A DNA stretch of 64,000 nucleotides from a virus, in IMG/VR virus record IMGVR_UViG_3300043811_000032, positions 1 through 64,000 of that record; one strand, written 5' to 3'. Both the position numbers and the translations under genes were made by a program. The notes under the pieces were generated by a model, which was given only the letters and a program-made list of their open reading frames with translations, made no database searches and was not told the origin of the DNA. The number at the start of each line of letters is the position of its first letter. The stretch's first letter is position 1. Positions 1,701 through 56,100 of this stretch are shown here, in pieces.

Positions 1701-4700
1701 TTACGCCACTCCTCCTACGTGTTCTATCCCGCTCGCCCCTATCGTCGCCGGCTTGCCGCTCGGATCGTTGGGGAAGATAGCCCCGCCACCACCCTTATCC
1801 TTCTCCCAGTCTCGCTTGACTCCCTCCGCATCCCACAGGGCACAGCAGTCGCGGTCGGTCACGGCAAACTGGACCCGAGGCTCGGTGCAGAATCCGTCCT
1901 TCACCCAGCGACAGTTGCCGCAGTTCGTACCCTTCACGCTGGGCGGCAGGTGCACGAAGTCGACCTTCTCTGCCCGCTGTACCTCGTCCGGTGACAGGGC
2001 CTTCCCCATCCGCCAGTCGTAGTTCTCACCTGAAGGATAATCATCGGTGTTCGCTTTGCTCAACGACTTCAACGCATAAAGGGTTCCGCCAGGTTTCTTT
2101 AGATCGTCGATGTCGTGAGCCATGCCCATGCGCAGCATTCGGGAGAGGATGACCTCCATCAGCTTTGGCTCGCTGAACTTGGTGCGCAGCTCCTGCAGGG
2201 ACCGAGGACGCTCACGGAGCATGTTAGTTAGCCAACGTTCGTACTTGTCGTAATCCTCGTGCTCGTCCCACTTGTCTTCCCACGAAGCCTTGTTCATCAG
2301 TCGGTCCGCAGCCGAGTCCGCCTGCTCGAACGAGTCGAACGGTCCGTGCTCGTTCCAGGTGCCGACCGGTCCCAGCGTCCACCAGCCGTCCTCGCGACGC
2401 TCGGTGGAGAAGGGTGAGGTCTTGAACTGTTCTGGGACAGCACTACTGGGGACTCCTCGACGAGACAATTCATCATCTACCGCGGTTCGCCAAGCTAACG
2501 CATAAGTTCCTGCTTCGTCACTCCACTCAGCGTAAGTCATTGCGTCTAAGCGTGCCCCGTTTGAACGTCGACTCTCTAACAATTTGCGAGTGCTCATTTG
2601 ATGAGCTATCTGCCTCTGCTTTGCGTCAGGCTCAACCCTACCTCCGGCCTTTCCCTTCCACCCGCCGATCCACGCTGCCGGCCACGGATGGTCGTCGGGT
2701 GCGGTTCCTGGAAAGTAGTCGACGCTGTCGGGCTCGGGCGGCGGCTGCTCCGGGTAAATCTCGCCGTCCTTGTCCTTGACCTGTGGAGCGGAGCCGCTGT
2801 TACCGTCTTGCCAGCCAGCGGTCCATCCACTTGCTTTGTATGGTTCACCAACTATGTAGGGGTTGTCCTCAGGACGTTCGCCTGACTCGGCGGCTCGGTA
2901 CCCTTCGGAGTACGCCACCTTGATGTCCCGCGTGATCGTAGGATCATCGCTGAACCGCATCAGCGCTGGACCCGGACCCTCAGGACCGTCGCCGACTTTC
3001 TCCTCAGCTCGCATGTCCGGCGTGCCAGGCACCATCACCAGATCACCCACAGCGAACCTGCCCATCCGATCCACGCTCGTCACCCGCACCTTGGCTGTGT
3101 CGCGGTCCGTGCCCTCGACGACGCCGGCCACGGTCTGGTCGGGCGTGGTGAACAGCACTGGCCAGCCATCGCCGCCCACCTTGCTGATCGACTGCGCCTG
3201 CACCGGTGCCTCGTCTAGTCCCGTGCCGCTCTCCGCGTGGCTCAGGTCGGACGGCTGCACACCCTCGGCGGTGCCGGCTGCCCGCACCTGCGGTCGCATG
3301 TCGTCGGCCAGATCGCCCGCTGCCGCCAGGTTCCACGGTGCGTTGCCGAAGCGATCCCCGAGGAGTTCTTCCGCGTTAGGAGCGACCTCACCCGACTTCT
3401 CCGGCGGCTTCCCCGTCGCCAGCGCCTGCCCGGTCTGCGCCTGAGCGATGCGTGCTGCCGACCCCTCGTCGTGCCCCTCGCGGAGCAGTGCCTGGTAGAC
3501 GTCATCGACCTTGGTGCCGGAGGGCTTCGTCACCACGTTGTCACCACTCGGCGTGGCGAACCCGTTGGCGTATAGCGGCGGCTTGGCGGTCTGTGGCGCA
3601 CGCTCCCCGAACTCCTCGGCCGGCGGCAGCGTCGGGTACGCCTGCACGGGGGCCTTGGTCTTGTCGTCCGCCACTTGCACCTTGCCACTGCCGAGGCAGG
3701 TCGGGCAGTTGCTGCCGCCGTCCGGTGCGACGCCCTTGCCGCCGCAGTCCTCGCACGTGACCTCCTTGGCCTCCTTGTCCTGCGGCTCGAAGTAGATCCT
3801 CGGCGTGGCGGTGCTGTTGCCGGGCGGCACATTGACGCCGAGCACGCCGCCTGCGGTCGCCTTCGTCTCTGGCTCCAGCAGCCGCAGCTTGTCGAGGATC
3901 TTGTCGTACTTGCCCTTGAAGCGCATGCCGCGGTCGTCGAGGTAGACCTTGACCTTGGGCTTGTGGTCCTCTATCGCATCGATGTGCCGGTCGAACTTCC
4001 ACTTGGTCAGCCACGCCTCGATCTGCTGCGGCGGGCGGCAGGAGAAGATGACCACCCGCCCGACCTTGGAGTAGAGTTTGGCCACGAACTCCTGAGCACC
4101 CTTCTGCGGGGGTGGCACGGCGTCGCCGAACTCGTCGTCGGTGCCGGCCATCCCGTAGGTGTTGAGCGTGGCATCGAAGTCTAGTGCCACGCTATCGATC
4201 TCGTACTTACCCTTGAACCACCACGGCTCGAAGTCGAGGATGGCGTCGAGGGCCTCGTCGTAGTCACCCTTATACCGCACCATCCGATCGTCGATGTACT
4301 TCTCCGCCCTCGGCTTCTCGGATATGACCTTCGGGTACGGTTGTCCGCCCATCGGGTCCGCTGTGCCGCCGCTGATGAGGTCATAGAGCTGGTATTTCTG
4401 GAGCCACTGGGTCACCTCGTCGACAGGGTGCGCGCTGTTGATCACCGTGCCGACCCGGTGCTCGCGGAGCGCCTCCAGGAACTCCTTGCATCCTTCCAGT
4501 GGCTCCAGGTGTGCGTAGTCCTCGCTCGTGTCCTTGTTCGCCAGCACGCCGCCCACGTCGAGGCACACGAGGCGGGAGACGCCGGGGAGCTTCTGCACTA
4601 TCAGGCTCTTATCCAACACAGAACCCTCTCGGCAAGTTATCGTTCCTGCACTGAATCGCCTGACAGTACCAGGGCGGGCATCTCTAAGCCACCTAGCCGC

Positions 4701-4979
4701 CGCTTCCTTCTCGCCCTCCGTCATCTGAGTCTTATCCAGTAGCTCGTCGGTCTCCCCCTCTGTATATTTCTCGCTCGGGTTGCCAAGCGAAGGAGAGACT
4801 ATAAAGTGTCTGTCGGCTGCTTTTTGCTCAGGCGGAGACTGCACCGTGTCCTCCGTCATCACGCTGCCCGGCATCTCCGTGCCGACCCGGTCCGCCACCG
4901 CCGCGTTATCGGTGTCGAGGACGAAGCGATCCGTGTACGGGAACTGGCTGCCGGGGTGCTCTACTCGGTAGGTCGGCAT
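1701..4979 (-). CDS. Tandem HAD-like domain protein with zinc-finger motifs, head operon
   Basis: The ATG at 4979 overlaps the previous stop (TGATG); a GTG one codon earlier is also possible. Numbering from that GTG, residues about 138-250 and 262-370 are two copies of a HAD phosphatase-like domain. Copy 1 has LDVGGVL (second Asp replaced by Gly), a Ser after INS, and YIDDR. Copy 2 has the canonical LDFDATL, IFSCRP and YLDDR. Both end in a similar RYKGDYD / RFKGKYD stretch, so they arose by duplication. Residues about 410-434 hold a DnaJ-type CxxCGGKG / CPTCLGSGK zinc motif. A later segment resembles a ribosome-modulation-factor repeat (EGYRAAESG..NPY..GWTAGW), and a CxxC...C...CC cluster lies near the C-terminus. 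It sits between prohead protease and other head genes. HAD copy 2 could hydrolyse a phosphate ester; the substrate is unknown. Confidence 0.7.
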   Translation of the reverse strand: MPTYRVEHPGSQFPYTDRFVLDTDNAAVADRVGTEMPGSVMTEDTVQSPPEQKAADRHFIVSPSLGNPSEKYTEGETDELLDKTQMTEGEKEAAARWLRDARPGTVRRFSAGTITCREGSVLDKSLIVQKLPGVSRLVCLDVGGVLANKDTSEDYAHLEPLEGCKEFLEALREHRVGTVINSAHPVDEVTQWLQKYQLYDLISGGTADPMGGQPYPKVISEKPRAEKYIDDRMVRYKGDYDEALDAILDFEPWWFKGKYEIDSVALDFDATLNTYGMAGTDDEFGDAVPPPQKGAQEFVAKLYSKVGRVVIFSCRPPQQIEAWLTKWKFDRHIDAIEDHKPKVKVYLDDRGMRFKGKYDKILDKLRLLEPETKATAGGVLGVNVPPGNSTATPRIYFEPQDKEAKEVTCEDCGGKGVAPDGGSNCPTCLGSGKVQVADDKTKAPVQAYPTLPPAEEFGERAPQTAKPPLYANGFATPSGDNVVTKPSGTKVDDVYQALLREGHDEGSAARIAQAQTGQALATGKPPEKSGEVAPNAEELLGDRFGNAPWNLAAAGDLADDMRPQVRAAGTAEGVQPSDLSHAESGTGLDEAPVQAQSISKVGGDGWPVLFTTPDQTVAGVVEGTDRDTAKVRVTSVDRMGRFAVGDLVMVPGTPDMRAEEKVGDGPEGPGPALMRFSDDPTITRDIKVAYSEGYRAAESGERPEDNPYIVGEPYKASGWTAGWQDGNSGSAPQVKDKDGEIYPEQPPPEPDSVDYFPGTAPDDHPWPAAWIGGWKGKAGGRVEPDAKQRQIAHQMSTRKLLESRRSNGARLDAMTYAEWSDEAGTYALAWRTAVDDELSRRGVPSSAVPEQFKTSPFSTERREDGWWTLGPVGTWNEHGPFDSFEQADSAADRLMNKASWEDKWDEHEDYDKYERWLTNMLRERPRSLQELRTKFSEPKLMEVILSRMLRMGMAHDIDDLKKPGGTLYALKSLSKANTDDYPSGENYDWRMGKALSPDEVQRAEKVDFVHLPPSVKGTNCGNCRWVKDGFCTEPRVQFAVTDRDCCALWDAEGVKRDWEKDKGGGGAIFPNDPSGKPATIGASGIEHVGGVA

Positions 4980-5233
4980 CACTCACCATCCTTGAAGTGC
5001 TTGAAAGCTTCTTCGACCGCCTTATCTTTCTCCTGCTCTGTCGACCCGTTGAATGCACAGGCGATTAACCTGTTCATCGCCTTTTTCTTGTCAGCGGGCA
5101 TCGCTTTCATCCAGCAGGAAGAGCATTGCCCTGCCTCGGCTTCTCGCAAGGAATGGAGAGTCCTGCCGCACCCGTCGGTTCGGCAAACGTCCCACACCGT
5201 CGTGGTTCGACTTTCTGGTATTCGATTCTTCAT
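4979..5233 (-). CDS. Small Cys-rich protein, unknown function
   Basis: This 84-residue protein starts at the ATG at 5233, which overlaps the preceding TGA as ATGA. The N-terminal half has a zinc-binding pattern, CRTDGC then CSSC, about 20 residues apart. The C-terminal half (DKKKAMNRLIAC...EQEKDKAVEEAFKHF) is helical and charged. It could be a small nucleic-acid or protein-binding zinc finger. No family was recognised. Confidence 0.6.
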   Translation of the reverse strand: MKNRIPESRTTTVWDVCRTDGCGRTLHSLREAEAGQCSSCWMKAMPADKKKAMNRLIACAFNGSTEQEKDKAVEEAFKHFKDGE

Positions 5234-6767: not shown

Positions 6768-8012
6768 TCAGTTGCCGCTCGCGTCGCCGAGCCCGACGTA
6801 CGCCGACACCGTAGTTGCACTCTGGTTGGCTAGCGTCATCGGCTTGGAGAGTGCCGGCAGACCATCGCCCCGCCATACTACTCGGAACGCCGCTTGGTTC
6901 TGCAGGAATGCCCACTGGTCGCTGTAGTCGATAAACAGCCCGCGATGGCCGATGATGTAGAGAGCCGGATCAAACAGCACCACGCAGCCGTCTTGCGGCG
7001 CGGCCACGCCGACATCCGGCAGCTTCTCGGTCTCGTAGAACGGCCGACCGTAGAGCAGGCCCTGGCTACCATCCTCACCGGGGATGTAGTAGAGAATGCC
7101 GCCGAGGCCGGTGAGGTTGGCGATGAACTGCATGGCGCCGGGGCTCATCGCCCACACTGCCCGCTTCTTGCTCTGTGGCAGAAGCCGCTGGTACATGTTA
7201 CTCAGGTCGGTCTGCGTCACGGTGCCGTTCACTTGCCGTGCCACCTTGAGCAGGCCGGGACATTGCAGGATGCCCTGCGGACCCGAGCTGTCGAACTGAC
7301 CGGTGAAGAAGTTCTGGTCCGTCCACCACGCCACGGCCCTCGTCGTGAACTGACGGATGAAGGCGTCGAGTCCGGGGTAGTCCTGCATCAACTGGTTGCT
7401 CGCCAGCAGATAGCCGTCGAGGTCGGTCGTGGTCAGTTCTACGGACCTGAACGATGGCTCGGTCTCGCTGATACCGCTGCCCTGCGTCTGGTTGAAGCTC
7501 ATCACCATGCCGGCGAACAGGTTGGTGATGCCGCTGGACGCGCTGGGTGTGGCAGCAGAGCCGGTCGGTGCCTTGTTGGGTGCCGTCACCGTCGGGTCGG
7601 GCAGCGGCATCATCAGCGTGTTGCTGGTCATCGGTTGGACGAAGGCGCGGGGCCAGAAGATGGAGTCCTCCGCCACGTCCTGCATCAGACCGTAGGCGTA
7701 CTCGTAGGGCACGAGGGCTCCGCCGGTGCCGAGGGTCAGCTCCGACAGGCTCGGGCTGGCCACCTTCTGCACGCCCCAGCCGGAGCGGTAGACCTTGTCG
7801 ATGCGCCGCACGGCCTCTTCGCGGACGATGCCCGGTCCCTTGTCGATCCCCTTGCCGCGGAGATCGTCGGAGATGGACTCGCACAGCTTGTAGCTCTTGG
7901 CCTTGACGACGCAGTGGAGCCACTCGCCGAATGACTTTTCCACGTTGCCAACCATCTCAGGTGGTGGAGCGTTGACTCCGGCCATTGTCTTGGTCTTCAT
8001 TTCGATCCTCAT
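6768..8012 (-). CDS. Major capsid protein, HK97 fold
   Basis: 414 residues from ATG 8012; a second ATG lies four codons in (8000), and neither has a strong ribosome site. The sequence follows the HK97-type pattern: a helical N-terminal delta-like region (1-90), then SELTLGTGGALVPYEYAYGLM, SIFWPRAFVQPMTSNTLMMPLPD, an E-loop-like strand set, a central DGYLLASNQLMQDYPGLDAFIRQ spine helix, NFFTGQFDSSGPQGIL, and a P-domain end including GCVVLFDPALYIIGHRGLFIDYS. It lies in the expected position between portal and protease genes on the same strand. It forms the icosahedral shell. Confidence 0.9.
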   Translation of the reverse strand: MRIEMKTKTMAGVNAPPPEMVGNVEKSFGEWLHCVVKAKSYKLCESISDDLRGKGIDKGPGIVREEAVRRIDKVYRSGWGVQKVASPSLSELTLGTGGALVPYEYAYGLMQDVAEDSIFWPRAFVQPMTSNTLMMPLPDPTVTAPNKAPTGSAATPSASSGITNLFAGMVMSFNQTQGSGISETEPSFRSVELTTTDLDGYLLASNQLMQDYPGLDAFIRQFTTRAVAWWTDQNFFTGQFDSSGPQGILQCPGLLKVARQVNGTVTQTDLSNMYQRLLPQSKKRAVWAMSPGAMQFIANLTGLGGILYYIPGEDGSQGLLYGRPFYETEKLPDVGVAAPQDGCVVLFDPALYIIGHRGLFIDYSDQWAFLQNQAAFRVVWRGDGLPALSKPMTLANQSATTVSAYVGLGDASGN

Positions 8013-18404: not shown

Positions 18405-18775
18405 GGCGCCTCCACGCAGTCCATCAGACCGTCTTCAATGTACTCGTATCCAGTCCCCTTGACAGCTTCTATAATCGCTTCAGCTTCCAGACGACCTATC
18501 CTTACCTGCCGCTTCTCGTGCGGGCTCGGCTCATTGCCCCTGATCGCGACTACACCGGCAGCCATTGGATACTCGTGATCGCCGTTAGCGACATACTCTC
18601 GTATATGGTTGGCCCAGGCACTACCCTGCTCTTCGAGCCAATCTGCAAACGCAAGATAGAGCATCACATCACCCGGTGGAGACAGATGCGACCACGACCC
18701 ATCCTTTTTCCACTTGGCCCAACGCTTGTCTCTGTCAACTCGCAGCGCCCGTATCCAGTCAGCAGGTCCAATCAC
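18401..18775 (-). CDS. TIGR02996-like (planctomycete repeat-companion) protein
   Basis: 124 residues from GTG 18775 (GTGA overlap). The segment DVMLYLAFADWLEEQGSAWANHIREYV fits the TIGR02996 signature (LVYADWLEE.GD...AEFIRLQ), a domain expanded almost only in Gemmata-type planctomycetes. Function of the domain is unknown. Its presence is one of the clearest host hints in the window. Confidence 0.65.
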   Translation of the reverse strand: MIGPADWIRALRVDRDKRWAKWKKDGSWSHLSPPGDVMLYLAFADWLEEQGSAWANHIREYVANGDHEYPMAAGVVAIRGNEPSPHEKRQVRIGRLEAEAIIEAVKGTGYEYIEDGLMDCVEAP

Positions 18776-20406
18776 CGTTGCCTCCCTCCGTCGCGTGCCT
18801 TTATTTTATCCTCACGAGCCCTCATCAGCTCCTCCCACGTGCGGCCTTTCTTTTGCTCTTGGTCGAGGAGTTGGCACAATTGCAGCGCGTGGTGATGGGC
18901 AGTTGCCTCGTAGTTATCCCTTCGGATGCCGCGACCCGAACCAATAGCGTTGCTGAGGCGAGGATCGATTCCAACTCCGAGAGCAAGAGCCTTCCGCGTG
19001 TGCTCTGGGCTGTAGCAACAGTTGATCGCGATCTCGTTGATCGTGAGCTGGTCTTGATGGTAGCCATAGACGATCCTCGCGATGTTGGCCGCGTTGTCCT
19101 GCGGGCTCATGCCGTTGCAGGAGAACAGTGCCTTGGCGTAGAGTGCTTGGTCGTCCTTGAGTGCTGCGTCAAAGTCCTGCTGGAAGAGCTGCTGCACCAG
19201 GTAGGAGTCGTCCTCATCCAGCACCAGTAGCCGCACGTTCTTCCGTATGTCCGTGACTAACCGCACCTCGTCGGCCACCTCCTTGAGTCCCTTGTCGTGG
19301 CAGATGATGCAACTCGCCCCCGGATAGATGCCCTTGTACTTGAAGTGCGTCTTCCGGTCCACGACGATGTTGGTGTCGCCAACATTGACCAGCTTGTCGT
19401 TCGCATCCGTGATCGCGTAGTACTGGAGCCGGTTGGGCAGACTCGCTATGAACTCCCCGGCGTCCCGCACCTTTTTCTTGCCATCGACCTTCTTTCCCTT
19501 GATGAACAGCAGCACGTTCAGCAGCAAGTCGTTCTCGTCCACTGAGGTCAGGTAATCGAAGCTGCTGTGCCGGTAGCCGAGGTTGGTGGTCTCTCGCACC
19601 AGTGCCCGGTTGTTGAGGCTCACCTCCGTGCTGTCGATCACCGTGCCGGCTGCCTTGATGTCCTCGTTGTCCTCGGGATGGTAGCGACCTATCTTGTCCC
19701 AGCTCTTCAGGTCCTTGCCGGCGCCGAGCAGCTCGTAGTAGATCGGCGCGAACAGGGCGTTGGCCACGAACCAGTCGGCCCGCACTATCGGGAAGTCGGT
19801 GCCCGTCAGCTTCGCCAGCTTGGCCACGCTCTGCTGGTTTAGTTCCGGTGCATGCTTCGTGACGAGAGTAAGCTTCTTCTCCCAGCACCAGTTGTACGTG
19901 TAGCCGTTGTGGACGTATGGCTCGCACTTCGTCTTGCACCATCCAAGGGCTTGTTCTTGCTGATGAAAGTACGGTTCGGGGAAGTCTTTGTCCGGCCTCG
20001 CCACCCGCAGCGGTCCGCCGCCATGCAGCCCCAGATTCTCCCACGCCTCGGGACTGATGCAGGCGTCCTTGAGGTTGAACCGCATCAGCCGGCCCTTGTC
20101 GACCGGCACAAACCCAAGCATCAGGACGTTGCGGCTCAGCGAGTTCCACGTGAACAGCACCGCCTGCACGAGTGCGAAGTACTCGTCGGGATGGATACCA
20201 GAGAGCGCAACGTACCGAGAGCAGTAGGCTTCGTTGGAATCAAGCGTGCCAGCGTCTGCGAGTGCCGATTCCACCGCCGCATCGTACCTGTAGACCTCCT
20301 TGTACGGGTCGAGCGGTTGGGCCGTGGGCGGCTCGCTCCGCAGCGGCGTCGAGAGCAGCGACCCGATCCCAGCTGCCAGCGTCTTGAGTGCTTCTCGGCG
20401 GTTCAT
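18772..20406 (-). CDS. Tat-exported cytochrome c-like protein
   Basis: 544 residues from ATG 20406. The N-terminus has a twin-arginine signal (NRREALKTLAAGIGSLLS). A single haem motif CIICH lies at about residue 365, after FKYKGIYPGAS. Residues 80-350 have a planctomycete-specific helical domain (TWNSLSRNVLMLGFVPVDKGRLMRF, WFVANALFAPIYYELLGAG). It is predicted to be exported folded to the periplasm or paryphoplasm and to bind one haem. It lies directly upstream of the other haem-motif gene, so the two may form an envelope electron-transfer or oxidoreductase pair. Function not proven. Confidence 0.7.
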   Translation of the reverse strand: MNRREALKTLAAGIGSLLSTPLRSEPPTAQPLDPYKEVYRYDAAVESALADAGTLDSNEAYCSRYVALSGIHPDEYFALVQAVLFTWNSLSRNVLMLGFVPVDKGRLMRFNLKDACISPEAWENLGLHGGGPLRVARPDKDFPEPYFHQQEQALGWCKTKCEPYVHNGYTYNWCWEKKLTLVTKHAPELNQQSVAKLAKLTGTDFPIVRADWFVANALFAPIYYELLGAGKDLKSWDKIGRYHPEDNEDIKAAGTVIDSTEVSLNNRALVRETTNLGYRHSSFDYLTSVDENDLLLNVLLFIKGKKVDGKKKVRDAGEFIASLPNRLQYYAITDANDKLVNVGDTNIVVDRKTHFKYKGIYPGASCIICHDKGLKEVADEVRLVTDIRKNVRLLVLDEDDSYLVQQLFQQDFDAALKDDQALYAKALFSCNGMSPQDNAANIARIVYGYHQDQLTINEIAINCCYSPEHTRKALALGVGIDPRLSNAIGSGRGIRRDNYEATAHHHALQLCQLLDQEQKKGRTWEELMRAREDKIKARDGGRQR

Positions 20407-20431
20407 CGTTGCTCGTCTACGGTTGCTTAAA

Positions 20432-20609
20432 GGCTGAGGATGGAATCGAACCACCGCCCTCCGGTTTATCAGACCGGTGCTCTTGCGACGGGGCCTACGG
20501 GGTAGCAGACGACCCGGTACCAGGCCCGCCCTTTCAACTTCCGCCGCCCCAAGACCCTACCGAAGCGTCCTCCGGTAAACGGCTCCTTGGCCTGCTGAGC
20601 TACTCAGCC
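20432..20609 (-). tRNA. tRNA-Ile(GAT)-like gene interrupted by about 105 nt in the D-loop
   Basis: On the minus strand the 5' part reads GGCTGAG-TA-GCTC-AGCAGG (20609-20591). The 3' part reads GAGC-A-CCGGT-CTGATAA-ACCGG-AGGGC-GGTGG-TTCGATT-CCATC-CTCAGCC (20482-20432). Both acceptor strands pair perfectly (7 bp), the anticodon stem is perfect, the anticodon is GAT (Ile), and both promoter-like boxes (TAGCTCAG and GGTTCGATTCC) are canonical. The D-stem halves GCTC and GAGC are 106 bases apart instead of about 9. The insert is structured (TCTTGGGGC with GCCCC...CAAGA; GGGCCT with AGGCCC) and contains a second GAGC and ACCGGAGG. It could be an unusual intron, a tandem tRNA remnant or a disrupted gene. 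The stop codon of 20600-21373 overlaps its first bases. Confidence 0.55.
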
Positions 20610-21373
20610 ACCTTCCTCACCAGCGCCGCCAGCCCGTCGGCCGTGGTCGGCACCTTCAGGGCACGACCCTCCGGCAGCACATGGCCGGCGGAGTCGAGGA
20701 TGATCAGGGCCGGCACGCCGCCACCGCCCGGCTTGGTAGCTATCTCGGTCAGCTTCCGTCGCACCGCCGCCTCGCTGCGGAAGTCGTAGGCGTGGAAGGC
20801 ATGACCCTCGGACTGAAGCCGCTTGGCCACGTCGCTGTTCAGGATCGCGTCCAGCTCGGGCGTCTTCTTGTCGACGTCGTAGACCAGGTTCACGTCCACC
20901 CGCTGGCTCGGTGCCTTGGTCGTCGGCTCCTTGGCCGTAGATGCCTCGCCGCCCTTGGCCCGCACCCGCACTTGAGCGCTGAACGGCTCGTCCTTCACCG
21001 CGCTGATCGCCGTCACCAGCACGAACCCTTGCCGCGGCACCGCCACGATGAGGATCGGTGCACCTGGGTATGCGAAGGTCTTGATCGGCTTGTCGTAGCC
21101 GTCGACGTGCACCAGCCACTTGACCTTACCCTGCGTCTTGGCCGGGATCACCACGAACGGGTCCGTGTCTGGATCCACCTCGATGTCGCCGAGTGGCTTG
21201 CCACTCGGGTCCACCAGTTGGATCGGTGGCTCGCTCGTCGGCGCCGGTGCGTCTGCCACCTTGGCGTCGGGCTCCTTCTGGCTGCGAGCGGCGAGCAGGC
21301 CACCGAGCATCAGGAGCAGGATGGCGACCGACACTACCGACAGCCGAAAGCCTCTAACCACGTTGATTGCCAT
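20600..21373 (-). CDS. Membrane-anchored protein with thioredoxin-like C-terminal domain
   Basis: 257 residues from ATG 21373. One signal-anchor helix (SVVSVAILLLMLGGLLAA, about 12-30), then a Pro-rich linker, a beta-rich domain (GKVKWLVHVDGYDKPIKTF, PILIVAVPRQGFVLVTAIS) and a C-terminal alpha/beta domain with GVPALIILDSAGHVLPEGRA, which resembles a thioredoxin fold without a CxxC. Probably extracytoplasmic. Function unknown. The stop codon lies inside the interrupted tRNA. Confidence 0.6.
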   Translation of the reverse strand: MAINVVRGFRLSVVSVAILLLMLGGLLAARSQKEPDAKVADAPAPTSEPPIQLVDPSGKPLGDIEVDPDTDPFVVIPAKTQGKVKWLVHVDGYDKPIKTFAYPGAPILIVAVPRQGFVLVTAISAVKDEPFSAQVRVRAKGGEASTAKEPTTKAPSQRVDVNLVYDVDKKTPELDAILNSDVAKRLQSEGHAFHAYDFRSEAAVRRKLTEIATKPGGGGVPALIILDSAGHVLPEGRALKVPTTADGLAALVRKVAE

Positions 21374-21434
21374 TGTTGCCTCTCTGCCAGGAGCAGATTT
21401 CCACCAGTAGCACGTAAGCGATAACGAACAGCAC
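21354..21434 (-). CDS. Possible 26-residue single-pass membrane peptide
   Basis: From GTG 21434 the frame encodes VLFVIAYVLLVEICSW followed by a Gly/Asn-rich tail. Upstream codons CTG and GTA leave the true start open. It fills the gap between two genes on the same strand. Weak support. Confidence 0.3.
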   Translation of the reverse strand: MLFVIAYVLLVEICSWQRGNNGNQRG

Positions 21435-21457
21435 GCCAACCGTGAACAGTTGCAGGG

Positions 21458-50365: not shown

Positions 50366-50872
50366 CCTGTTTCGCCCGCTGCCCGATGGCGTGGTCGGCT
50401 TCACCACCACCCCTACGCCGTGCCCGTTCTTCTCCGCCTCGATCTTCGCCGCTCGGCCATTGCGGTACTCCTCGATCTGTGCCGCCCGCAGCTCCGCCGC
50501 CTTCGCCTTCGCCGCCTTGCGCAGCTCACGCCGGATCTCTTTCGCCTCCAGCTTGGCTCGTGCCTCGTCCTGCCGAGCCCGCCGCTTCTCCGCGATGCTG
50601 CGCAGGCGCTTGTCCTGCAGGTTCTGCGGCTCCTCCCAGTAGGCTGTCGCCGAGACCTGCGCGACGATCTCCCGCACCCGCAGGGCATCGTCGTTGAAGT
50701 ACTCCACCACCTTGTCGCAGTGGGCGATCAGCCGATGCCCCGGTTGGTAGCAGCCGAGCAGGTAAGCCAGCAGCTCCGCCTCGTCCTCGGTCACCTGCAG
50801 CGGGCGCCACTGTGGCTGGAGGACGTAGCCCGTGGTCTGCTTCTTCTGGTGCTTGCGCTTCTTGCGTGGCAT
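50171..50872 (-). CDS. Basic helical protein overlapping convergent gene
   Basis: 233 residues from ATG 50872 (TGATG). Residues 1-20 are very basic (RKKRKHQKKQ), the middle has EAELLAYLLGCYQPGHR and a long charged helix (AEKRRARQDEARAKLEAKEIRRELRKAAKAKAAEL). The last 65 residues overlap the plus-strand sigma-like gene. Function unknown; a nucleic-acid role is possible. Confidence 0.5.
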   Translation of the reverse strand: MPRKKRKHQKKQTTGYVLQPQWRPLQVTEDEAELLAYLLGCYQPGHRLIAHCDKVVEYFNDDALRVREIVAQVSATAYWEEPQNLQDKRLRSIAEKRRARQDEARAKLEAKEIRRELRKAAKAKAAELRAAQIEEYRNGRAAKIEAEKNGHGVGVVVKPTTPSGSGRNRSKAEQARVAQEDVVQQPVEGGAGHLEQPSSTAPPAVGTAGADLGGNEVQHLPVEERDGDGEGVG

Positions 50873-53112
50873 CACTTCCTCTTGGGTATGAGGTGGCGAT
50901 ACGCAGGATACTTGTACAGGGCTCCCTCTATCCGTGGCACAGCGTTACAGCGCAGATATCGCTCCGATAGGTCGATCCCTACCGAATGTCGGCCGTGGTC
51001 GATACTGACCTCGCACGTAGTACCGCTCCCACAGAAGGGGTCCATAACTACGCACGGCACCACGTCGTAGTCGTAGCCGCAATGGCAACCCGGCTTCCAG
51101 CCCACCGTCTTCACCTCGACGCCGGCCACCGAGTTGGCGCAGCTGTTGCCCGTGCCCTCCTCGCCGGTCCGCTTGACGTAGTCGTTGGGTCGCTCCCGCT
51201 TCAGCTTCTTCTCCTCTGTCACCCGCTGCCACGGTGTGCCGCAGAAGCCGCAGGCGCCCTTCGCACTAGTGCCGGCGAGGATGCACGGCTCGATCAGTTT
51301 AGGTGGAAACGTGGCGAAGTGGGCACCAGGGTATCCGCCTGCACTAATAAGCCATACTGACCTCTTGTTCCGATTTGGTACACGGCCTAATACCGCTGAG
51401 GCGTGGTCTTCGTTGTGCGACACCTTCCCGTCGAACTCAGTGGACGCTTGCTTCGGAGCAAGCGTTCGAGGAGGTAAGTTAGCTGTGTCTGCCGGCTCCT
51501 TGATCGCCTCCGCGTCATAGAAGTAGTCCATCCCCTTCGTCAGCAGGAACACGTACTCATGCGCCTTGGTGCAACGGTTCCGCACGCTCTCGGGCATCGG
51601 CGACGGCTTGCTGTTATGGGTCAACACACCCGAAGCCAGTGCGAGCAGGTGTGGCTCGTCCTCAACGCCCAGTTCGTACACGTATCGCGACTTCGCCTTG
51701 CGGACCTCCACAACCTCCAGCCGGTCCTTCTCGTTCCAGTGCCCGCTTCGTGCCTTCCTGATCTCCCCCTTGTATCCTTTCCGCGGTTTGCCTTTGTATA
51801 TCCCGACACACGGATTCAATGTCAAGCAGTAGCCAAGCCGAGCGCAGACTGTCCGCAGATCCCTTTCCAAGTTAGCGTTCCTTGTGAACCCGAGTCGCCA
51901 GCGAACACCACCGTCGCTACCGTCTCCACTCAGGTAGCCGTCCAGCATCGCCTCCAAAAAGTCGTTGCCATACCGCCACACTACCGGCGAGAAGCCCTTG
52001 TCGTAAGCATCGACACCACTTACCAACTCCCTGATGACAGCACAGATTAACTTGCCATATACTCGGATGGTCTGATTGTTGCCGTCTACAGTCAACGTGG
52101 CAGAACCGCCGTAGTCCTCAGCAATCTTCTTTACAAACTCCCACCTGCTTACTTCGTTGACATGGCCCGACAGGCTGAACTTGTCCTTCCTATCTCGCGT
52201 AACACCGCTGCCTTCGGCGATGTAGAGCCCTGCCAACCATGCCGCATCAAGCCCTACGTGTGACGGATCTCTTGGTTCCTTTGGTGCCGGCAGGCGACAG
52301 CCTTCCAGTACATCGCCAACCCTAATGTCTTTGGATTCAACAAGACCACGATCCTTTACTGGGAACCTATGCGTTGGCGTGCAAGAAATGCGCTCACCAC
52401 TTCTAAGCACTAGCGTCCTCTCATCTCCGCACCGTGGCGACTTGCTCATCCCCTTGAGCTGTGTCCACTTATTGCCGTTCCATAGTTTGACCGTGCTCGG
52501 TTTGAGCCGGTACAGATCCTTGAGTGTCATTGGCATGTCGCCCTTCTGCGTGCGAGCGTAGACCCACGTGCCACCACTCAGGCACCAAATTATGTCCTGT
52601 CGCAGCACCCATCCATCAGCTTGCAACGCGAGGGCGACGCGCCACGGGACGCCGACGAGGTTGCCTGATCTTAAGCCGCTGGTGCCTCCGTCTTTTGGCC
52701 ACGAGCCGGCCGATTCCGACTGCTTATCGTTCTCGAACTTCTTGCCAAAGTAGCGTTCGTTGAACCCGCTTTTCACGTCTCCACCACCTCCCGCTCCGCC
52801 GTAACTGTCACCTAAATTAAGCCATAGCACCCCGTCGTCCCGCAGCACCCGCCGCACCTCGCGAAACACCTCGACCATCGTGGCGACAAACTCCTGCGGT
52901 GTCTTCTCACTGCCGATTTCCTGATGCTTGCTATCGTGCCCGTCCTCTAAGTACGAGCGGAGGCCCCAATAAGGCGGACTAGTCACGACACAGTGAACGC
53001 TCTGGGTCTTGAGCCCGCGCAGGACGTCTGTGACGTTGCCGTGATATATCTTCACGGTCTCTTGGTCCGAGGTCATCCAGTAGGGCGGCACTGCCCTGAC
53101 GTGTATCGGCAT
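50872..53112 (-). CDS. DNA methyltransferase (N4/N6 class beta) containing an intein
   Basis: 746 residues from ATG 53112. Extein motifs are in class-beta order: motif IV TSPPYWGLRSY early, motif I DPFCGSGTT at the end. SPPY fits N4-cytosine or N6-adenine methylation. The intein follows DIIW; after splicing DIIW joins SKPSPMPESV, the usual methyltransferase sequence. A CGFCG zinc pair lies in the C-half. It would protect phage DNA from restriction or mark it. It may act on the same DNA as the hypermodification block downstream in the opposite direction of transcription order. Confidence 0.88.
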   Translation of the reverse strand: MPIHVRAVPPYWMTSDQETVKIYHGNVTDVLRGLKTQSVHCVVTSPPYWGLRSYLEDGHDSKHQEIGSEKTPQEFVATMVEVFREVRRVLRDDGVLWLNLGDSYGGAGGGGDVKSGFNERYFGKKFENDKQSESAGSWPKDGGTSGLRSGNLVGVPWRVALALQADGWVLRQDIIWCLSGGTWVYARTQKGDMPMTLKDLYRLKPSTVKLWNGNKWTQLKGMSKSPRCGDERTLVLRSGERISCTPTHRFPVKDRGLVESKDIRVGDVLEGCRLPAPKEPRDPSHVGLDAAWLAGLYIAEGSGVTRDRKDKFSLSGHVNEVSRWEFVKKIAEDYGGSATLTVDGNNQTIRVYGKLICAVIRELVSGVDAYDKGFSPVVWRYGNDFLEAMLDGYLSGDGSDGGVRWRLGFTRNANLERDLRTVCARLGYCLTLNPCVGIYKGKPRKGYKGEIRKARSGHWNEKDRLEVVEVRKAKSRYVYELGVEDEPHLLALASGVLTHNSKPSPMPESVRNRCTKAHEYVFLLTKGMDYFYDAEAIKEPADTANLPPRTLAPKQASTEFDGKVSHNEDHASAVLGRVPNRNKRSVWLISAGGYPGAHFATFPPKLIEPCILAGTSAKGACGFCGTPWQRVTEEKKLKRERPNDYVKRTGEEGTGNSCANSVAGVEVKTVGWKPGCHCGYDYDVVPCVVMDPFCGSGTTCEVSIDHGRHSVGIDLSERYLRCNAVPRIEGALYKYPAYRHLIPKRK
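51613..52584 (-). mobile_element. Intein with DOD (LAGLIDADG) homing endonuclease, in methyltransferase
   Basis: 324 residues from Cys1 (CLSGGTWVY) to the final VLTHN, with Ser as the +1 residue. Block B is TPTHRFPV, and the two DOD helices are WLAGLYIAEGSG and MLDGYLSGDGSDGG, with intact acidic residues. So both splicing and homing look functional. Insertion is between IW and SKP in the active-site region, a typical conserved site. Confidence 0.9.
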
Positions 53113-56100
53113 TAGCCTTCTCCCATTACTTCGCGGTACAACCCCGCCATCCTTCGGGTAAGTCTCCACCGAGTCCTCAGATTGACTCCGTTCTTCAGCG
53201 GCTGATGCGGCTCGCAGGCACCGATCCGCTTGAGGAACTTGAGCAGCCCGCGTTCCTTGTCCTCTCCTTCGTGAGTTAGGTGGATGAGTGCAGCCACCTC
53301 CAGTCCCATGTCCCCCGCCGCTGCCAAATGCCGGATGATCTCGTACGTGCGGCCCCGAGCCGTATCCATCGCCACCCGTCGCACGCGGACCATCACCTCG
53401 CCGTCAATGGCGGTGCGGTTGAGTACGATGGCGAGGCAGTACGCCAGCTTGCCGATCTGGGACGTGAGCCGAGCACTCATCTCTCGGCTTGTCTCCTCGT
53501 CCTGCTTCTTGCTAGGGCGGGCACGCAGGTACGCCACGAACTTGGCGTAGGCCATGCAGAGCCTTGCCGCCTCGTCGGTCATCGTGATGTGGGGTAGTAA
53601 CCTACCCACGTTCTGCCGCAGCCACTCGACGTAGCCGCCGGTGATGCGCTTGGCGGCGATCATTTCCGGCGTGTCGGTGGTCTCGACCTTGCCATCCACC
53701 TCGTATAGGTTCATGCGCACCTGGTTGATCTTCCGCCAGCTGATCTCGTCCTCCAGCGAGTCGTCGATCACGTCCATGATGCGGCAGCACAGGAACCGCT
53801 CGCCCAGCTCACTGGTGTCCAGCGCACGCAGCGCCCCCGTACCGCAGAGTATCCAGGCGAAGCGGATACCCTCGTAGTCGCGGGACATCTTGTTGTTGAA
53901 AGCCGACCTACCCACCGTGTCGTACAGGTCGCGGGCCTGCCCCAGCACCTGATCGCGGTTAGGTAATGTCAACACCGTGTCGCCATCTTTGACAACGAAC
54001 GCCTTGTCGCGGAGCTTGTTCACCAATCCGAGGTCCTCCGTGCCCTCCTTGTCCGTCTGGTAGCCGCTGTAGAAGCCGCGGAACGTGCTCTGGGCCTTGA
54101 CGTACTCGCGAGCCACGCTAATCGCCTCGCACAGGATACTCTTGCCGGTAGACGGAGGCGACACCGCCATGATCCAGATCTGGTCCCCCACCACCTTCAC
54201 CGAGGCGACCGCCGCCATGATGATGCTGAAGCCGTAGTCCAGCCCGTCCGTCCACTTCATCGCCTTGCGCCACGCCTGCACGCAGTCCCGCCAGTTGTCG
54301 CAGGGCTGGGTCGTGAGTAGGTCGCGGTGTGGCCCGGCCTCGCTCTTGACCAGCCACTCGGCAGGCACCGGCTCGATCCGGTCGTTGAGCCTCTCCTGTA
54401 GTTCGATGCGCTCCTCCGCCGTCGAGCCCTGCGTGAGCCAGTCCCGCACGTCGTAGCCGCTCGGCAGCTCGGGGTCGTAGCCGTCCGCGCCCCAGCGAAT
54501 GTACCTGATCTCCTTGGGTGGTGCCTCCTGGCTCGCCAACAGCCGGGCGACGCGCTCCATGCCGTCTAGTCCGGCCTTGGTGACTCGTCCCTGATGCTCG
54601 CGAGGATGGTCGTTGTCGAACAGTAGTACCACCGTCTTGCCTGCCAGCAGCGAGGCCCAGCTCGGGTTGAACACGCTACAGCCCGGCACCGCCAGCACGT
54701 TCGCCCGCTGGCCGAGTCCCGCACTGCGAGCCGCCTGTAGCGTCTCCCACCACGCCATCCCGTCCCACGGCCCTTCACAATTTCCAGACACCACCGCCTT
54801 GCCGTTCCGGCGGACCACCACAAACCCAGTGGAGACAGTCACGCAGTAGACCTTACCTTTGTAGTGCTCTCTAGTCGGTTTATTGACAATCACTCTCCAA
54901 GGTTTCTTGATCATACAGAGGACGTACTGGTCGTTGCAGTTCTCCTCCTCGGACGGTATGCGGTTGGTACCGCTGGAATAGCCGGAGATCACAGCCATCC
55001 TTGAGATGACGTCTGCGTTGGCAGCGTTGGAGGTAAAATACCGGATACAGTTCTGGCCCTTGTCGCCGTCCCAATGAGGAATCTCCTCAATGATAGTCTG
55101 GCGGGTCTTGAGCGGCCAAGCTAGCTCCTTGCCTGTCCATATCTTCTTAGGGCAGCATTCCAATAAGAATTGAGCCTCCGGCTGTCGCTTGTCTATGAGG
55201 ATAGACTCAGACTCGTCCACGCTCCCCCAGTGGTGAGTCTTGAACTTTATGCCAAGTTCGTTGAGCAGGCTCTTTAGCCGCTCTTTCTTGCGATCCTTGT
55301 AGAAGCTGAACTCGATCTGGAATCCGCCTCGGATACAACCGTCGGCTACGAAAGCCGTCAACAACTTGGCTTGCGTTTCTGATGGACCTGCTTCTTCCCC
55401 CACCATAGTACCGCTGACTGGCAACTGGAAGCCGGCACCAACGTCTTGGGCCTTTCTGACTTGGCTCTTGGTAGCCTGCTGCCTTTTGCACAGCATCCTG
55501 TGGTCTGGCGTAACCAACAGGTCACACCAGCGGCTGGCGAAGTTGACCATCTCTCCGTGGAAATCTAGGACCTGCTTGGCTCTAGGCCGCTCGAACCTTA
55601 TGCTCTCGTTCTCTGGTTTGTAGGAGGCCACTCTGTCCTCCTCTCCCAATTCCTTGAACAACATCCATCCACGGTTAGTAAGGATCTCTGTGTCGTCCGA
55701 GTAGCAGACGTAACACATCTCCTTGCTCGCGTCGAACAGCGGCACGCCATGAAGCCCGTGTCCAACGTGCTCTCCGCCTGATAGAGTCGTAGGAAGCAAC
55801 TTCATTCTCTTACTTGTATAGTCTCGCACGTAGCGGTACAGCTGGACGAGGTTGCCCTCGCGGTTGTACCCCGGCAGCGCGTAGTCAAGAGTGAGCGGAT
55901 GCCGAATAGCTCCCCACTTGACGAGCGTGTCGACACTGAGCAGCTTGCGATCCTCGGCCAGCTCCTCCAGATCCGTCGGCGGTTGTGCCGCAGCCCACAG
56001 CTCGCGTAGGAACGTAACCTGGTTACCAGCACGTCCGCAGACCTTACAGTCCCAGAGCCCGCTCGCTGTTGCCACTCGCCATTTGAGCTTACCGCAGAAC

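Follow-up and report, generated by a model that had tools for sequence, protein, structure and literature searches.

What kind of RNA is encoded by a viral locus that contains all four stems of a tRNA-Ile(GAT) and extends over 178 nt? The window, the 64,000-nucleotide stretch analysed in this study, belongs to a virus record of 98.7 kb with genes for an HK97-type capsid, a portal protein and DNA polymerase I. The element in question (20432..20609) resides on the minus strand, with its 5' end at 20609 and its 3' end at 20432, and combines the cloverleaf of a tRNA-Ile(GAT) with an extra domain of 103 nt. It is located between two co-directional protein genes. The upstream gene (20600..21439, minus strand), whose product has no match in PHROG or Pfam, reaches into the element such that its stop codon TAG (20602-20600) coincides with T8, A9 and G10 of the tRNA. 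The downstream gene (18772..20406, minus strand) starts 25 nt past the element and its predicted product contains a CxxCH motif and a Tat-like start, with the only phage relative found belonging to a 595-kb uncultured phage record (LR756511). A search of viral_contigs for relatives of both flanking proteins returned none, no relative was found to bear this element at the corresponding site, and viral_contigs contained no match to exact patterns of the same acceptor or of a tRNA-Ile(GAT) with an insert in its D arm. Elsewhere in the window, a DNA methyltransferase gene (50872-53169) shows a match to an intein splicing domain that is below the cut-off of Pfam, and a 1093-aa protein (1701-4982) matches ribosome modulation factor (PF04957, residues 686-727) and a phosphoheptose isomerase PHROG.

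Anatomy of the tRNA-like element

Read from 5' to 3', the element proceeds as GGCTGAG-TA-GCTC-AGCAGGCCAAG-GAGC, followed by the 103 nt and by A-CCGGT-CTGATAA-ACCGG-AGGGC-GGTGG-TTCGATT-CCATC-CTCAGCC-T, with all features described here encoded on the minus strand. The two strands of the acceptor stem, GGCTGAG (20603..20609), whose assignment is based on this pairing and on the chance estimate given below, and CTCAGCC (20432..20438), which is evident from the sequence and the Rfam match, pair at seven of seven positions. The D arm GCTC-AGCAGGCCAAG-GAGC (20582..20600), recognized in the sequence and by ARAGORN on a shortened version, closes locally around an 11-nt loop with all four GCTC/GAGC pairs in place. 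The anticodon arm CCGGT-CTGATAA-ACCGG (20461..20477), with its anticodon GAT at 20468-20470, and the T arm GGTGG-TTCGATT-CCATC (20439..20455) are both found by Rfam and ARAGORN, and in each of them five of five positions are paired (CCGGT/ACCGG and GGTGG/CCATC). The well-paired acceptor, D, anticodon and T arms that an earlier note on this DNA had ascribed to a tRNA-Ile(GAT) are thus present. The discriminator of tRNA-Ile is usually A73, whereas the element carries U73 (T on the tRNA strand, at 20431), and no CCA is encoded.

The earlier note had further described the tRNA as split in the D-loop by about 105 nt, with the halves of the D-stem far apart. Removal of 103 nt (20581-20479) results in a canonical tRNA-Ile(GAT) in ARAGORN, as does removal of 104 nt in a shifted variant, leaving 75 or 74 nt with all four stems and the conserved residues in place. 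The insert is thus real, and its size has to be corrected to 103-104 nt. In the first of these placements, which rests on ARAGORN applied to the shortened sequence, the extra domain (20479..20581) has a second GAGC as its last four bases, and the D stem can close either locally on the first GAGC or distally, with separated halves, on the second. The repetition of GAGC makes two placements of the extra bases equivalent, one within the D loop and one separating the D arm from the anticodon arm. The two halves do belong together, and the interruption falls in the D-loop in just one of these placements.

A canonical tRNA forms a contiguous cloverleaf of about 70-95 nt, which is not the case for this element with its 178 nt. 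In its uncut form it is not recognized as tRNA in a standard ARAGORN search, the intron mode of the program proposes an unlikely tRNA-Ser(gga), and the 3' part alone does not give an ARAGORN tRNA either. A structure search with and without the insert, of the kind that the earlier note had proposed as a check, has thus returned a tRNA-Ile(GAT) for the shortened sequence and no standard call for the complete one. In Rfam, the match to RF00005 is limited to the 3' part (20495-20431), where it scores 34.6 bits against a cut-off of 29 bits with a mismatched 5' strand, and covariance scores that are too low for both halves, named in the note as speaking against its proposal, were hence not observed. 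According to a Markov model, chance would produce a fitting 5' half, defined by seven acceptor pairs, T8, R9, G10, A14 and GG, only 0.00055 times per 200 nt, and it is therefore very unlikely that the two tRNA halves pair by chance. The fold of the whole RNA is no better than that of shuffled sequences (z = -0.68). When the whole RNA is folded, the predicted structure of minimum energy retains the cloverleaf and places the extra domain within the D arm. Minimum-energy folding of the extra domain gives an 8-bp hairpin, UACCGGAG-GACG-CUUCGGUA (20558..20577), and a predicted long branched helix (20491..20557).

Related elements in the neighborhood of polA

For the polA gene of the window phage (G000 62705-64822), viral_contigs contains 46 relatives. 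Almost all of these encode, as located by tblastn, a lysine- and acid-rich protein upstream of polA and in the same orientation; there is no match in L044 and L053, whose analysed DNA starts inside polA. For the window record (L076), where tblastn gives no match, a similar protein was recognized upstream of polA by eye from its translation, and an open reading frame that reads like an HNH endonuclease (L076:929-1525; G000 64828-65424) is located between the two genes. An alignment of polA to genome_contigs identified one locus, on a contig of a MAG labelled as archaeon, which does not settle the host and in which ARAGORN finds no tRNA.

Rfam tRNA matches, 21 to 120 nt long, are found in 16 of 43 relatives. 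In the gap between the conserved gene and polA, a full T stem and a paired acceptor (score of 12 or more) were found together in 16 elements, two of which are identical copies, compared to 0.03 expected from a Markov null. Phages that share this DNA polymerase I contain tRNA-like elements, many of them in this gap, that combine intact acceptor and T arms with a remodelled inner domain (67-167 nt), which the earlier note had not anticipated. The first elements of the gap differ in their acceptors, which nevertheless pair fully (GGTCCTG/CAGGACC, GGCCCTG/CAGGGCC, GATCCTG/CAGGATC). Total lengths range from 67 nt in L005 and 72 nt in L046 over 86 nt in L032, 110 nt in L013 and 113 and 119 nt in L052 to 125 and 130 nt in L016 and 130 nt in L034. 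According to constrained folds, the element of L005 is devoid of a normal anticodon arm, a CCCA-GCAA-TGGG hairpin replaces this arm in L046, and extra hairpins are found in L013, L016, L045 and G018, while the anticodon loop or arm, read by eye, is longer in L032, L036 and L052. In L002, which is related through its portal protein (53% identity for the best segment), an element with a non-standard anticodon region is located upstream of the portal gene. Ordinary tRNAs are assigned by ARAGORN in L014, L020 and L031 (CAT) and for the first element of L029 (CTA). The latter (L029:7305-7375) is a phage tRNA with an amber anticodon and is accompanied by two more tRNA-like elements at 7643 and 7739. 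In two relatives, hairpins are located directly 5' of tRNA-like elements (L003:1459-1492 and L005:8102-8160).

The described pattern was compared to control phages that were searched identically, in each case starting from T arms. An acceptor partner is present for 22 of 29 clade T arms, well above the chance rate of 0.125 per site, which was obtained with a slightly different rule. A standard anticodon arm was scored in 6 of 22 clade elements compared to 45 of 50 elements from five control phages (p = 2e-7) and to 15 of 20 from phage T5 (p = 0.005), with a chance rate of the anticodon score of 0.11 per site and a mild bias in the clade set, which includes a few loci fetched for their tRNA matches. 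Inspection by eye shows that two of the six scores (L002, L035) look accidental and that one real arm (L014) was missed, placing the true figure at about five. For KVP40, considered as a further control, ARAGORN did not find a tRNA in the fetched stretch. We have found no paper on the elements of this clade in a literature search whose coverage was thin for subscription journals. Two unannotated regions in described phages bear a resemblance: a 107-nt segment of Citrobacter phage CkP1 with a T arm and acceptor pairing resembles the clade elements (L086:4686-4792), and a tRNA-Ile(GAT)-like 3' half in a tRNA array of Xanthomonas phage X1 (L087:5930-6057) resembles the 3' half found in the window.

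Competing explanations of the locus

We favor, although with less than even confidence, the assignment of the locus as a tRNA-derived and probably non-decoding RNA gene, in which a tRNA-Ile(GAT) cloverleaf bears an extra domain of 103 nt where its D and anticodon arms meet. With similar reservation we regard it as one of the many elements of the clade that have kept the acceptor-T half, with an inner half that is enlarged, shortened or rebuilt.

The main rival, which is a real if less probable possibility, holds that a recent insertion of 103 nt has broken a tRNA-Ile(GAT) gene and left a pseudogene that had no time to decay. All stems are still intact, U73 would be odd in a working tRNA-Ile, and short direct repeats at the ends of the insert (AAGGAGC/AAGAGC) suit an insertion or duplication event. 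The insert itself displays neither significant similarity to tRNA nor structure beyond chance, as its fold is no more stable than shuffles (z = -0.91), and it is present as a single copy in the 98.7-kb record, where a search for a second one found none. The relatives argue in the opposite direction, as they repeatedly keep the acceptor and T arms and change only the middle, an outcome that general decay would not lead one to expect. The intact anticodon arm, which distinguishes the window element from most relatives, counts against our preferred assignment and is also compatible with a recent insertion into a tRNA gene that was functional. Further points against the preferred assignment are the folds of the whole RNA and of the insert, which do not surpass shuffles, the failure to find a relative with this element at this site, and a search that selected elements for their T arm, albeit in the controls as well. 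Because of the intact anticodon arm and the lack of a close relative among the sequences analysed, the insertion explains the window element, taken on its own, almost as well as a non-decoding RNA would.

It is improbable that the extra sequence is a genuine intron, although its exact removal, by 103 or 104 nt, would yield the canonical tRNA. The catalytic core of group I and II introns comprises roughly 200 nt or more, and the insert is too short for self-splicing of either kind. It matches no RNA family in Rfam, intron families included. The earlier note was right to regard the interruption as unusual and as being too short and wrongly placed to represent a group I intron. Introns of the archaeal type were rejected as well, since none of the five equivalent boundaries shows a bulge-helix-bulge, with three loose matches nearby compared to 3.7 in shuffles. 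Moreover, the removal of an insert could not restore a normal anticodon arm in L005 and L046, which do not possess one.

About equally improbable is a working tRNA that retains the extra domain at its elbow and still enters the ribosome. The modelled minimum-energy fold would accommodate this arrangement, but a structured D-arm domain of 103 nt is expected to clash with the synthetase, EF-Tu and the ribosome, and both U73 and the relatives without an anticodon arm speak against it as well. Least probable is the fusion of two tandem tRNAs suggested in the earlier note: the repeats of GAGC and ACCGGAGG on which it was based are real and ACCGGAGGnCG occurs twice at a distance of 111 nt, but alignments of the insert to tRNA do not reach significance (p = 0.16 and 0.49), the sequence in front of the second GAGC is unlike the 5' half (p = 0.96) and a second set of tRNA halves is not visible.

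Proposed role and relation to known tRNA-like RNAs

If the locus encodes a non-decoding RNA, the element would be co-transcribed with its co-directional neighbors, and RNase P and 3'-end enzymes of the host would excise a stable tRNA-like RNA, which may separate the flanking mRNAs, provide a tRNA mimic that is free of the need to decode, or both. The coaxial acceptor-T helix is the main determinant for cleavage by RNase P and for 3' processing, and an RNA that only requires excision or likeness to a tRNA would consequently keep the acceptor-T half while the rest drifts, which fits the pattern found in the clade. The rebuilt middles between intact ends in distant relatives suggest that these RNAs are kept for a job besides the reading of codons. 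Somewhat more tentatively than for the single locus, we thus propose that phages of this polA-neighborhood clade maintain tRNA-like RNAs that form a non-decoding family, in which selection acts on the acceptor-T half and the inner domain evolves freely, and of which the window element would be an Ile-type member with an added domain. Such a family would serve mRNA processing or the mimicry of tRNA towards host factors. Many of these elements are missed or mislabelled by standard tRNA finders, and their recurrence across a phage group, often at one gene position, offers a comparative set to approach the role of T5-like RNAs.

Four of the 22 clade elements with paired acceptor look like ordinary phage tRNA genes (L014, L020, L031 and the first element of L029), whereas most of the others, like the window element, do not adopt a contiguous tRNA fold of 70-95 nt. 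With tmRNA (SsrA; PMC3985003), the window element shares tRNA-like ends and a large extra domain, but an assignment as tmRNA is not supported, since the element has no match to this family in Rfam and contains an anticodon arm and a C-G instead of the G3-U70 pair at position 3:70. The tRNA-like structures of plant viruses similarly illustrate the mimicry of tRNA by a virus (PMC4810235), although these constitute genomic 3' ends of RNA viruses and the clade elements are genes of DNA phages between protein genes. In archaea, inserts in tRNA, including those at unusual positions, are removed by proteins (PMC4090602), whereas the boundaries of the window insert are devoid of the bulge-helix-bulge.

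The closest correspondence is found in phage T5, whose record (AY543070) lists RNA1 and RNA2 under the label 'tRNA-like stable RNA with unknown functions' and RNA3 as putative. Our T-arm search matched inside RNA1 (144 nt) and RNA2 (125 nt), with best pairings that are short (84 and 67 nt), and inspection of their sequences and folds by eye reveals a T arm and a terminal acceptor pairing around an enlarged middle. The T5 RNAs, located among phage tRNA genes, thus combine a tRNA-type acceptor and T arm with an enlarged middle in 125-144 nt, and in the window element the acceptor and T arms are likewise intact and enclose a middle that is non-standard. They differ in that RNA1 has a Leu-type appearance with an enlarged anticodon region, whereas the window element is of Ile-type with an intact anticodon arm and an enlargement preceding it, and in that the T5 molecules are annotated as stable RNAs whereas the window element is predicted. 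Since acceptor pairing around an enlarged middle is a feature of RNA1 and RNA2, we classify the window element, by this comparison by eye, as a variant of the T5 kind of tRNA-like stable RNA rather than as an ordinary tRNA.
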